Assembly: GCA_029204225.1 (NCBI GenBank)
Contig: CM055100.1
Location: 16,632,164 to 16,696,163, forward strand
Length of the DNA stretch: 64,000 nt
Reading direction: 5' to 3'
Origin: Diphasiastrum complanatum
Taxonomy: Eukaryota > Streptophyta > Lycopodiopsida > Lycopodiales > Lycopodiaceae
Of this stretch, positions 2,215-9,183 are shown piece by piece. Position 1 is the stretch's first letter. Each line of letters opens with the position of its first letter. The notes below the pieces were generated by a model. It was not told where the DNA came from. It saw only the letters and a list, made by a program, of their open reading frames with translations, and made no database searches. A program made the position numbers and the translations under genes.

Positions 2215-2349
2215 CTCTCTCTCTCTCTCTCTCTCTCTCTCTCTCTCTCTCTCTCTCTCTCTCTCTCTCTCTCTCTCTCTCTCTCTCTCTCTCTCTCTCT
2301 CTCTCTCTCTCTCTCTCTCTCTCTCTCTCTCTCTCTCTCTCTCTCTCTC
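2215..2349. repeat. (CT)n microsatellite, about 67 units
   Basis: Perfect CT repeat. The Ser/Leu and Glu/Arg reading frames it creates are artefacts. It forms the left edge of the first 1.6-kb direct repeat of the Penelope-like element. Confidence 0.98.
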
Positions 2350-3843
2350 CCCCATGGGATCTGTTACGTACATATATCACTCTATTTGCTTTGCAAACCT
2401 CTGCAGAATGCAAATGTTGCATACTAACCCTATTTATTAGTCGGGGCATAAGAAAAATGCCTTGCTATGATAAAAGACCCCACTTGGAAAAAAAAAAGTT
2501 TTTTAAAAAAAAGTGGTGGGAAAGTGTTGGTAGTCTTTCCAAGGGCCAAGATCTGTGCACATTTTGAACAGTCAATCTAACGGTGAGTGGCAATTTGCAC
2601 TTTAGTACACCTGATTGTCCTTTGGTGCTATAAGGAGGGAAGTCACAAAACCCTATATTTCTCTTATATTTTCTTGCTTTTTTTCTCTCTCGTTCAGCCC
2701 TGCACTATTGGTGCTTTTCTTTACAGTGATTGCAATCGAAGAAGAATACTCGTGAATGTTATGGGATGTGCAATCGTGTGAACGATACTACAATCTAAGG
2801 TGAGAACGGTATGAGGAATGCTAGCTCGCTGATACTAAAGGTTGTGTGCTTTGCTTTATGATTATGAATGGATGCTTACAACTTGCTGTGATTACCGTCG
2901 TGTAGTAGTAAGTTTTGACTTGCAAAACTGTGATTCGGCATTCTTACAAGCAAACGCTGCCTCATAGTGGGCACCTTTACAGGTATTTTTTTCTACCAAT
3001 AATTGAGTTTTGGTTGGCGCTGGACAATGATCCAGGTGTATACTATAAATAGCACTGATTTTTGTTGATAAGTAGTCGCTGACCAGCGCTATCTGTATAG
3101 CGGAATGGGCCACTAGCCAGTGCTTCTTTTTGAGTATGAAATCCATGTTACTATAGCGATGAAGCATGGCCTTACATGCATGCACATTTCCACGCATTTT
3201 ACAGAATGTAAGGATTGAAAAAGTGCGATGGACCGCTGGCCTTGCTTATGGTTTCCAGTGATAACAATGATGAATGCTTATATGTTATTGATAAGAGCAT
3301 TCTTGCTACTCCATTGGCTGTAACTTGCTATGATTGGTTGCTCTGGATGATTGCTATGATTGTATGATAGATTGTTGCCTCTGATAAAGAGTAGAATGGC
3401 TTCTAAGAAGTGTAAACATGAAGGAAGCTTGGTGTGATTGTTTCTTTTTGAGACGACATATGCATAGAACATGAATATCTGTATGATGTGGGTACTGTGA
3501 GGAAGGAATTGATCTCGAATAAAGTTGAATGATAAGCTAGTAATCTGTGGCTAAATGATGGATTACTATTGCTAAAGACCATGAGGGTGATAGAAGTACG
3601 ATACGCTTAACACAATACTTTCGGTTGGAATATTCTAGCACATAGGTGATTTGTTAAAGCAGCTGACGATAGATAATTTGCAAGAGATGACTTCGTCTAT
3701 CATTCAGGTACGATGCTATACAAAACTACACCAATACGGTGGGTAGCCTTACTCGTTACTACAGGAAGTCTTATCCATGTATGATAATTCTAATTTTTTT
3801 CCTTTAAAAGTAGTAACTAATGAAGTTACAGAAGTCTGATCTT
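2215..3843 (+). repeat. Pseudo-LTR-like direct repeat, copy 1
   Basis: From the CT tract to the GAAGTCTGATCTT end, this block is repeated in the same order and orientation at 7572-9183 with few substitutions and small indels. Similarity starts exactly at the CT tract and stops at 3843/9183. The two copies flank the ORF1-like region and reverse transcriptase. Penelope-like elements characteristically carry such pseudo-LTRs, and the clade with an N-terminal CxC domain is reported to favour microsatellites. I found no CTGATGA hammerhead core in it. It contains no convincing gene. Confidence 0.75.
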
Positions 3844-4435
3844 ATATACATTAAAATAGAGATGAGCTTTGCTTTATGGTACTCTGTACTATTATACTTT
3901 ATACAACTGTATTTTTTACCTGTTAGGCTATAAATTGAAGGATTTAAAGGGTTTGGTCTTGACTTGTCAAGAGGGACTATGTGAAATCTTGTTACTCTCT
4001 CTCTAGCATCTCTGATGCCATCCCAGCTACCCTTTGGTCAGGGTAGCACCAAACCTTTACCTTTACTTGTATTTTATGGCTAACAAGGTCTGTTGTATGA
4101 TGTAGTCCACAAGATGGTTTCATAATGCGGTGACTCTTGGCTATGGGGAGCCCCTTCCTCCTCCTAGTCCTTTTGTTCAGACCATTATATGTTGCACGAA
4201 GTTGAAGTTCACAATTTGATTACTGCTTATGATATGACTACTTGTATGACAAAATTCTTTGCCTTATTGATTTGATGTACATCATGGATTGGATGAATAT
4301 TTATACGAATTTTATTAAAAAGAAGGAATCCCTTAGCATGATTGTAAAAATCTATATGGACCTCTCTAATTATGCTGAACGAATTGTTGTTGAGGAATAA
4401 TTTTGTAATACGCATATTTGGAGAGTATTTGCTTG
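3844..4435 (+). other. Element-internal sequence before ORF1
   Basis: This is unique to the first copy (absent after the second repeat), so it is the start of the element body. The text is broken in all frames. One plus frame around 4210-4400 (YDYLYDKILCLIDLMYIMDW) may be the decayed N-terminus of ORF1. Confidence 0.4.
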
Positions 4436-5493
4436 CCTGGAAAAAGAAAATGGTGACTCCTCTATTGATACCCCTGTCCCTTCTACTGCTCCTACTTCAC
4501 CGCACCCTCTGATTTTTACCAAGGACCTTGATGAAGATAGTGCTTCTCAGTTAGAGTCTTTCTCACAAGAAATCTGTGATGTGGGAAATCAATCTGCCTT
4601 TGAATTTTGTCAAGACAATAGTTGCCAAGTATCATTGGTACCTAGTCGTATCATTGAGTTTAAATCTGCAAAAACTGCTTATAAACTTTGGAGCCTTCCC
4701 TCTGTCAACTTCCTTGCACCTATCTCTATTGAAGTCTGGATCGCTCTTGCTCATCTTACTAATGAAGAGGTCCAAGCTTGCAAGCTTGCTGCTTTGCATA
4801 AGAATCATTCTTTTGATACTCCTATTGCCTTTGATACTATTATCAAGATGAGCAGATTTGAACCTTCAAGATGTCCTTTTGAGCAGACCTGGGCTAGAAC
4901 TAGAGGCCATTTTGACATTGGCTTTAATAGAATGAACCTTCATCAAGGTAGAATCTGGAACTGGAAAAGACTCTTCTTTAAGTGCAGATGCGGTGATAAA
5001 AGCAAAAACAATTCTTCTATCATATGGTTTGATCACTCTATCTGGTATATAATGAGTAATCTTTATTTTCTTTCCTGGTGCATCTCTGCAAAACCAGCTT
5101 AATGCCTTCTTCCTTTGGTTGCATAAACCTGCCAGAGAGGTTCTCAAGTCCCACCTTGTCTTTCTGTTTATCCGACAATACATGATTGATGCTGCCATTG
5201 AACTTTCCATAAACCCTACTGCTAAGCTTCTTGCACACCTTGGCGATGCTGAAAACGTTCGAGAAATTGAATGCCTTTTGAAAAAACCTAGCTTTTCTAC
5301 CTTGCAAGACAAATACTTCCAGAATACTAGCAAAAAAACGGGTTCCTTCAATCTGAACAATCCAAGCTCAGTCATATCAAGTAGTGGAAATAACAGGAAG
5401 AGGAAATACTTTCCAAACAAAGGCAAAGAAGGGCAAAGCAGTGGTGGAAAGAGGAATCTTCCTATCAGAAAACTAAACTTTTACTATGATTGA
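4436..5493 (+). pseudogene. ORF1-like protein of a Penelope-like element
   Basis: Several overlapping frames form one decayed protein. It contains ISIEVWIALAHLTNEEVQAC, then RFEPSRCPFEQTW, then FKCRCGDKSKNNSSIIWFDH, and ends in a basic Ser/Asn-rich tail (GNNRKRKYFPNKGKEG). The same blocks occur in the same order in the reversed copy at 57.0-58.8 kb (QFEPSRCPSPWHLF; IKCDCGRKNTKCNGQILWFD). Conservation of these blocks between two separate copies shows a real protein family of the element. The basic C-terminus suggests a nucleic-acid-binding, gag-like role (inference). I do not recognise a named domain. I see no GIY-YIG endonuclease here. Confidence 0.6.
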
Positions 5494-7504: not shown

Positions 7505-7571
7505 CACTCTATCTCAGGGGTGCTAACTGCTCCCTCAAAAACTTTGCTAGCTATGGGTATGGTTGTTGGGT

Positions 7572-7691
7572 TCTCTCTCTCTCTCTCTCTCTCTCTCTCT
7601 CTCTCTCTCTCTCTCTCTCTCTCTCTCTCTCTCTCTCTCTCTCTCTCTCTCTCTCTCTCTCTCTCTCTCTCTCTCTCTCTCTCTCTCTCTC
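7572..7691. repeat. (CT)n microsatellite, about 60 units
   Basis: Perfect CT tract at the left edge of the second direct repeat, in the same relative place as the tract at 2215. Confidence 0.98.
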
Positions 7692-9183
7692 ATGGGCTCT
7701 GTTACATACATATATCAATCTATTTGCTTCACAAACCTCTGTAGAATGCAAATGTCGCATACTAACCCTATTTACTAGTCGGGGCGTAAGAAAAATACCT
7801 TGCTATGATAAAAGACCCCACTTGGAAAAAAAAATTTATAAGAAAAGTGGTGGGAAAGTTGGTAGTCTTTCCAAGGGCCAAGATCTGTGCACATTTTGAA
7901 CGGTCAATCTAACGGTGAACAACAATTTGCACTTAGTACACCTAATTGTCCTCTGGTGCTATAAAGAGGGAAGTCACAAAACCCTATTCACTTTCCCTTA
8001 TACTTTCTTGTTTTTTTTCTCTCTCCTTCAGCCCTGCTCTACTGGTGCTTTTCTTTACGGTGATTGCAATCGAAGAAGAATACTTGTGAATGCTACGGGA
8101 TGTGCAATCGTGTGAACGATACTGCAACCGAAGGTGAGAACGGTATGAGGAATGCTAGCTCGCTGATACTAAAGGTTGTGTGCTGTGCTTTATGATTATG
8201 AATGGATGCTTACAACTTGCTGTGATTACCGTTGTGTGGTAGCAAGTTTTGACTTGCAAAACTGTGATTCGACATTCTTACAAGCAGAAGCTGCCTCAAG
8301 GAGCAATAGTGGGCACCTTTACAGGTATTTTTTCTACCAGTAATTGAGTTTTGGTTAGCCCTGGATAGCGATCCAGGTGTATACTATAAATAGCACTGAT
8401 TTTTGTTGATAGGTAGTCACTGGCCAGCGCTATCTGTATAGCGGAATGGGTCGCTGGCCAGTGCTCCTTTTTGAGTATGAAATCCATGTTATTATAGCGA
8501 TGAAGGATGGCCTTGCATGCATGCATATTTTCATGCATTTTACAGTATGTAAGGATTGAAAAAGTGCGATGGACCGCTGGCCTTGCTTATGGTTTTCAGA
8601 GATAACAATGAAGAATGCTTATATGTTATTGATAAGAGCATTCCTGCTACTCCATTGGCTGTAACTTGCTATGATTGGTTGCTCTGGATGATTGCTATGA
8701 TTGTATGATAGATTTTTGCCTTTGATGAAGAGTAGAATGGCTTCTAAGAAGTGTAAACATGAAGGAAGCTTGGTGTGATTGTTTCTTTTTGAGAAGACGT
8801 ATGCACAGAACATGAATATCTGTATGATGTGGGTACTGCGAGGAAGGAATTGCTCTTGAATAAAGTTGAATGATAAGCTAGTAATCTGCAGCTAAATGAT
8901 GGATTAACTATTGCTAAAGACTATGAGGGTGATAGAAGTACGATACACTTAACACAATACTTTCGTTTGGAATCTTCTAGCACGTAGGTTATTTGTTAAA
9001 ACAGTTGAAGATGAATAATTCGCAAGAGATGACTTCGTCTATCATTCAGGTACGATGCTATACAAAACTACACCAATACGGTGGGTAGCCTTACTTGTTA
9101 CTACAGGAAGTCTTATCCATGTATGATAATTCTAATTTTTTCCTTTAAAAGTAGTAACTAATGAAGTTACAAAAGTCTGATCT
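7572..9183 (+). repeat. Pseudo-LTR-like direct repeat, copy 2
   Basis: This is the second copy of the block at 2215-3843. Shared landmarks include the TAGTCGGGGC..AAGAAAAAT segment just after the tract, the GAAGAAGAATACT segment, the GTTGATA.GTAGTC segment and the ACACCAATACGGTGGGTAGCC segment close to the end. It lies directly after the RT frame. After 9183 the sequence differs from copy 1. Apparent short ORFs inside are not conserved as proteins and are best ignored. Confidence 0.75.

Follow-up and report, generated by a model that had tools for sequence, protein, structure and literature searches.

A probable Penelope-like retroelement with CT microsatellite edges and no recognisable endonuclease in Diphasiastrum complanatum

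In this study, we describe a decayed retroelement at positions 2215-9690 of a 64,000-nucleotide stretch of the Diphasiastrum complanatum genome (the window). With a probability of roughly two in three, we propose that it is a decayed member of an abundant Penelope-like element (PLE) family that combines a telomerase-like reverse transcriptase (RT) with a CxC motif and an ORF1, has no recognisable endonuclease, is dispersed over the chromosome arms and would prime its reverse transcription in CT microsatellites. Its parts follow each other as (CT)n, a UTR-like repeat U, ORF1, ORF2 with the RT, a hairpin, (CT)n and a second U (Table 1).

Organization of the element

Table 1. Features of the element in window coordinates.
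Feature	Position	Strand	Remark
Left terminal (CT)n tract, 67.5 units	2215-2349	+	Tandem Repeats Finder
Left U, UTR-like terminal repeat	2350-4004	+	About 550 nt deleted near 3866; ends in CTTGTTA and a short CT run (3995-4004)
ORF1 remnant, two frames (4248-5066 and 5059-5490)	4248-5490	+	No Pfam family
ORF2 remnant, six frame pieces: CxC segment, RT, C-terminal part	5547-7504	+	Stop TAG at 7502-7504
CTC (CxC motif)	5781-5789	+	CxC kept in 65/67 aligned rows
GHV block	5831-5839	+	In broken ORF2 frames
GLNHIP block	from 5897	+	In broken ORF2 frames
GIPMG (RT motif B)	6874-6888	+	Alignment of relatives
YIDD (RT motif C)	7009-7020	+	Alignment of relatives
3' hairpin, 16-bp stem, overlapping the ORF2 stop codon	7495-7532	+	Fold z-score -5.83
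Linker, ending in GGTTGTTGGGT(T) (GGTTGGTGGGTT in most copies listed)	7533-7571	+	
Internal (CT)n tract, between ORF2 end and right U	7572-7691	+	Tandem Repeats Finder
Right U	7692-9690	+	Lacks the last ~140 nt of the family's U

The first-pass annotation had recognised two direct repeats of 1.6 kb, each starting at a CT tract. These repeats are real (2353-3843 and 7691-9184, 92.5% identity over 1,503 columns, with a CT tract immediately before each), but their length was understated, and the extent of 2215-9183 given for the whole element was accordingly too short. In an alignment with the genomic copy L063, the right U continues through 9166-9690 at 92% and ends at about 9690, whereas the left U extends to about 4004 with some 550 nt missing near 3866; position 9183 therefore merely corresponds to the start of the deletion in the left U.

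The U pair flanks the body, and the same long repeats accompany the same element in other copies, which agrees with the pseudo-LTR layout suggested earlier and with the partial tandem arrangement expected of Penelope-like elements. Across copies, the unit order is (CT)n-U-short CT-ORF1-ORF2-hairpin-linker-(CT)n-U-(CT)n. In all four full copies, the left and right U are mutual closest relatives, as in co-made terminal repeats: both U of each full copy were made together. Gene conversion could be an alternative source of such sister pairs. By our own count of 27 distinct ORF2 ends, 22 have a U-like start behind the CT tract; for L029, L030, L069 and two places in L036, this was judged from the start motif alone. 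The remaining five continue from CT into non-U sequence, so that either the family has two types of 3' end or recombination between CT tracts has removed U. Solitary U repeats between CT tracts also occur (L052/L053, L062/L063, L064/L065) and would suit the idea, foreseen in the first-pass annotation, that U is an unrelated CT-targeting transposon which landed by chance beside the RT unit. Given the sister repeats of the four full copies, the 22 ORF2 ends and the long repeats travelling with the same element elsewhere, this idea is scarcely credible.

The additional ORF1 noted upstream of the RT is a genuine coding region in which changes between subfamilies are mostly silent. Its dN/dS between subfamilies amounts to 0.15-0.27 in the four pairs with computable dS (five further pairs are saturated) and to 0.27-0.92 among six young pairs. 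No Pfam family was matched by ORF1.

Reverse transcriptase and its relatives

The blocks CTC, GHV, GLNHIP, GIPMG and YIDD, noted earlier and lying in broken ORF2 frames, are conserved in relatives. We aligned 67 rows, consisting of 64 relatives hand-picked from 126 fetched proteins and three copies from this genome. The first cysteine of CxC is present in 67/67 rows and the second in 65/67, while the H of HV, the G and N of GLNH, both G of GIPMG and the Y of YIDD are each found in 67/67. Because they are near-invariant across this alignment, the blocks are not due to chance, and a conserved CxC segment precedes the RT. The alignment rows have 36-144 residues (median 95) ahead of CxC and a median of 172 residues after YIDD.

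For the RT core of the window, Pfam returned RVT_1 alone and weakly (E 3.3e-5, 24.1 bits against a cut-off of 29.6). Protease, integrase and RNase H were not found by Pfam in the window, the copies or the relatives, RVT_1 being the sole such domain, which does not fit an LTR retrotransposon. Structure was modelled for an intact relative, P0002 (pLDDT 90.9), rather than for the window protein; P0002 is 32-35% identical to this genome's rows in the alignment. In both fold searches with this model, the best 14 rows were telomerases, which outranked LINE, R2 and group II RTs, the lowest telomerase rows tying with the best of the others. With TM-scores of 0.27-0.39 (Foldseek, by query), the telomerase rows score low, and they are followed by viral RdRps. 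Since telomerases are the best fold matches of P0002, the RT is, on this model, telomerase-like and of PLE type, in keeping with the earlier assignment to PLEs rather than to LINE or LTR elements.

The protein search gave 226 matches, the best 120 of which are mostly unnamed. Plant-related relatives are among them, namely the moss Ceratodon (P0074) and the charophyte Chara (P0010, P0011). Among the matches listed, including the best 120 of 226, none could be identified as a Naiad, Chlamys, Athena or Coprina RT.

Search for an endonuclease

The Naiad/Chlamys clade, to which the element had been tentatively assigned, is reportedly defined by an N-terminal GIY-YIG endonuclease. Its traits comprise a CxC before the RT, pseudo-LTRs, a microsatellite bias, lack of a hammerhead and an insertion-in-fingers in the RT, and Chlamys is present in green algae and spike mosses. 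Set beside this clade by description, our element is similar in its telomerase-type RT, a CxC segment ahead of it (putatively the published Naiad/Chlamys motif), the pseudo-LTR layout and the microsatellite edges. It also has no hammerhead core detectable by Rfam at E up to 1 (window positions 1500-10000 and six copies of 9-10 kb). It differs by its separate ORF1 and by the lack of a detectable GIY-YIG. None of the 67 aligned proteins matched this domain in Pfam at E up to 1, a search whose sensitivity for diverged Chlamys nucleases is unproven; the first reading had likewise seen none. Membership of the clade is thus unsupported. A loose GIY-YIG pattern occurred once in 126 proteins (P0024); this match begins at residue 668 of 703 and looks like chance.

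A true Naiad/Chlamys element might nonetheless nick its own target with a GIY-YIG in ORF1 or in N-terminal ORF2 that is too diverged to be seen. Besides the shared features listed above, the stretch from motif A (Asp404) to motif B (Gly504) of the P0002 model, 100 residues with strands and a helix, may represent an insertion-in-fingers, and an unrecognised nuclease could lie in ORF1, which is conserved, has no Pfam family and gave a useless model (pLDDT 38). With 0/67 rows matching, a sole pattern that looks like chance and 36-144 residues ahead of CxC, we regard this explanation as unlikely. Supply of an endonuclease in trans appears far less probable still. The same genome does hold a separate high-copy family of GIY-YIG ORFs (150 places scored among 471 candidates; ORFs of 117-144 amino acids inside repeated units at 10 fetched loci), but no sequence of the element recurs in these 10 loci of about 3.2 kb, and CT or AG runs longer than 12 bp, the 3' linker and RT matches are all absent from them.

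Within the sensitivity of Pfam, the element thus shows no endonuclease, in which it resembles the endonuclease-free (EN(-)) PLEs. From canonical Penelope/Poseidon elements, including conifer Dryad, which also have a PLE-type RT and pseudo-LTRs, it differs by having two ORFs, no detected C-terminal GIY-YIG (0/67 rows), no hammerhead match and the median of 172 residues after YIDD.

CT junctions and genomic distribution

A survey of the family in the same 1.74-Gb genome scored 70 places among 7,970 candidates. The microsatellite edges reported at first proved general: a CT tract adjoins the ORF2 end in all 23 loci that keep this end (30 RT loci fetched), and in 10/10 sampled U copies a CT tract lies no more than 3 nt from the U start, in one via a CA stretch. 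At the junctions examined, CT is on the sense strand, and beyond the tracts the flanking sequence is mostly unrelated between copies. In L068, one copy from a deep subfamily, (CA)13 takes the place of CT after the ORF2 end. These junctions agree with the insertion bias of Naiad/Chlamys; as no empty site was seen, it is unproven whether CT is the target or is carried along.

The copies are dispersed along the chromosomes, with 1 of 45 places less than 1 Mb from a large-contig end (KS p 0.74). According to PMC12477314 and PMC3846280, EN(-) PLEs are associated with telomeres, and PMC9033089 records them for Selaginella, Pinus and Picea. Our element could be such an Athena/Coprina-type EN(-) PLE that simply lies away from telomeres. 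It shares with them the missing endonuclease, an extra ORF and unit-end repeats that could pair with the target, as PMC12477314 describes for terminons. Set apart by description, theirs are telomere repeats at chromosome ends, whereas the junctions read here carry CT and no telomere repeats and the places are spread along the arms; we consider this interpretation improbable.

Proposed mechanism

Our preferred reading, priming in CT microsatellites by a PLE without its own endonuclease, would assign a role to the 3' end. Across 13 chosen sequences, 93.7% of cells pair in the ORF2 hairpin against at most 56.3% when the pairing is slid; the shuffle control for double-change pairs is weak (191 of 500). 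A hairpin at the end of U lacks significance (z -0.71). The likely recognition structure of the RT is the 3' hairpin with the linker. The RNA would end in a (CU)n stretch, and where a CT microsatellite is nicked or broken, this stretch may anneal to a 3' end in its (GA)n strand. Extension of this primer by the RT would then copy U and body, and a jump onto a second template might yield the second U, with completion where the internal CT meets the target CT.

Microsatellite-targeting LINEs have a microsatellite at the 3' end with an RNA hairpin nearby. Our element is similar in both respects but differs by an RT fold nearest to telomerase and by long terminal repeats. Priming in CT microsatellites is probably parallel to the priming of telomeric EN(-) PLEs on telomere repeats, and the element would be their interstitial counterpart. 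More tentatively, and rather doubtfully as a whole, the family may represent a hitherto undescribed group of telomerase-like retroelements in streptophytes. Such a group would have lost its endonuclease, or never possessed one, and would spread along chromosome arms by using breaks in polypurine/polypyrimidine microsatellites as primers. Its subfamilies might be keyed to their own microsatellite (CT, or CA in the one deep-subfamily copy), and its LTR-like repeats might arise by template jumping between microsatellite-bounded units.

In summary, the absence of a recognised cutter together with units bounded by CT tracts hints at landing in chromosome arms without an own endonuclease. A large and mostly unnamed protein group with moss and Chara members is added to the plant-related retroelements. 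A high-copy interstitial PLE family of this kind would show a telomerase-type RT finding its primers at internal repeats and would offer a testable system for primer choice by telomerase-like RTs. If true, an endonuclease-free, microsatellite-priming group would link telomerase-like end extension with ordinary retrotransposition.

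Terminal repeats and limits of the element

As the first-pass annotation had described, the window copy carries two direct repeats, each beginning at a CT tract, with a reverse transcriptase (RT) body between them; the repeats are 92.5% identical and the RT frame is broken. The right end given there, 9183, was too short, the right repeat reaching farther when compared with other copies. Judged from these copies, the UTR-like terminal repeat (U) is about 2.1-2.2 kb long. Because left and right U are sisters in four of four full copies compared (the window and loci L031, L032 and L033), with an identity of 93.7-95.6% within a copy vs 81.0-92.1% between copies, the two U of each full copy appear to have been made together. 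Had U inserted on its own next to a body, such sister pairs would not arise; gene conversion could produce them. At U position about 327-341 lies a short TTTCTCTCTC run, with a TATA-like GCTATAAGG upstream, and in loci L005, L007, L027 and L028 this run has grown to a long CT tract.

Features in and around the window copy
Feature	Position	Remark
Copia-like gag fragment (MNRFVILEHGERLTSSNYAIWKIKMESLL)	1177-1443	upstream of element; labelled by eye
Left repeat	2353-3843	U extends to 4004, minus about 550 nt deleted
TTTCTCTCTC run	about 2677-2691	in left U
Right repeat	7691-9184	U extends to about 9690
CACGGTCCCTATGCGGCCTAAATGCTCTGGG..CATGGT stretch	9700-9940, 10110-10500	just downstream of element
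AG tract	18737-18888	152 bp; no adjacent element sequence

Junctions and genomic distribution

Ten top-scoring full-length U copies were read on both sides. U starts at most 3 nt from a CT tract (28-194 bp) in nine, and CT followed by CA precedes it in one. Upstream of the left tract, L058 and L060 have an ORF2 end that belongs to the same family, L050 and L054 have one from other subfamilies, and L052 has the U tail of another subfamily; in the remaining five the sequence is unrelated. On the right, six copies leave the element through CTTGTT and CT (12-126 bp), two pass into ORF1 over a short CT run, and two lack the end. Eight flank pairs among 26 flanks are similar, seven being element remnants and one another repeat. 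U stands alone between CT tracts in three cases, and ORF2, CT and flank occur without U in L017, L019 and L026.

Among 30 fetched RT loci (including the near-identical twins L014/L015, L017/L018 and L024/L025, and L020, the window itself), seven end before the ORF2 end, and all 23 that retain it have a CT tract 0-10 nt away. The proposed microsatellite edges are borne out at the sampled U copies and ORF2 ends, with CT nearly throughout and, at the edges read, on the sense strand; L068, the single copy read of a deep subfamily, has (CA)13 instead after its ORF2 end. Its ORF1 appears related by eye. CT or AG tracts free of element sequence also occur in the window, and the tabulated AG tract is a potential, unoccupied target. 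The CACGGTCCCTATGCGGCCTAAATGCTCTGGG..CATGGT stretch twice continues into long CT tracts and is perhaps another CT-associated repeat.

The assembly searched (1.745 Gb, 5,176 contigs; window on contig C9) gave, as lower bounds that include duplicate contigs, 84 rows with the read-through window RT (70 scored of 7,970 candidates), 68 with the intact relative P0002 (61 of 6,420), which added further subfamilies, and 52 with U DNA (40 of 1,013). Copies are dispersed: of the 45 places from the window RT search that fall on large contigs whose length was read (C1-C23; 20 measured, 42-102 Mb), one lies within 1 Mb of a contig end.

Encoded proteins, endonuclease and 3' hairpin

Relatives of ORF2 numbered one with the window core, 11 with the family alignment and 226 with the RT region of the protein relative P0006, 120 of the latter being listed. 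Those that carry a species name come from Chara braunii (P0010, P0011) and from a moss, Ceratodon purpureus (P0074). In an alignment of 67 ORF2 proteins, RVT_1 matches 64 at E up to 1, and the CxC noted before the RT is present in 65, both exceptions being decayed copies of the studied genome. The dN/dS of ORF2 is 0.08-0.17 between subfamilies, with saturated dS (1.3-4.6), and 0.36-0.43 inside the subfamily; that of ORF1 is 0.15-0.27 in four between-subfamily pairs (five were not computable) and 0.27-0.92 among six young pairs.

In agreement with the initial reading, domain searches found no GIY-YIG in the 67 ORF2 rows (E up to 1) or in ORF1 pieces from the window and six copies, some of which were read partly out of frame. 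A separate, high-copy family of standalone GIY-YIG ORFs exists in the genome (150 places scored of 471 candidates), many rows lying on contig C8 at 0.6-2.4 Mb. In ten fetched loci (L038-L047) these ORFs (117-144 aa, YIGQTTNL...) belong to repeated units that have up to 3 kb in common; none of the ten shows an RT match within 1.5 kb, sequence of the element or a CT/AG run >12 bp.

The stop codon of ORF2 falls within a 16-bp hairpin directly upstream of the internal CT tract (window z-score -5.83), and the linker after this hairpin ends in GGTTGGTGGGTT in most listed copies (36 places, 27 distinct). In a chosen set of 13 distinct sequences, paired cells make up 93.7%, vs at most 56.3% when slid, and pairing percentage and covariation score both exceed all 500 shuffles; double changes affect two pairs, a number reached by 191 of 500 shuffles. 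L068 has a 3' hairpin of different sequence (z -2.95), and for the hairpin close to the end of U the score falls short of significance (z -0.71).

Relation to known elements and proposed mechanism

A new plant branch of Naiad/Chlamys had been suggested. An endonuclease is reportedly the defining feature of that clade (Craig et al. 2021), and since the domain searches found none here, we do not place the element there; nor do we place it in Athena/Coprina, because its located copies show no telomere association of the kind described for those EN(-) Penelope-like elements (PLEs). The plant PLEs that one review names are Dryad, from conifers, and EN(-) PLEs from Selaginella, Pinus and Picea (PMC9033089), and Chlamys is reported from Ectocarpus (PMC12477816).

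The element works like a PLE. In the mechanism we propose, (CU)n of the RNA would anneal to (GA)n ends exposed by a nick or break in a microsatellite, and cDNA synthesis would proceed through U and the body. The enzyme would jump templates at the short CT run that separates the left U from ORF1, with closure at the point where the internal CT joins the CT of the target. Recombination between CT tracts may remove the right U or the body, which would account for the forms with U alone and with ORF2 but no U.
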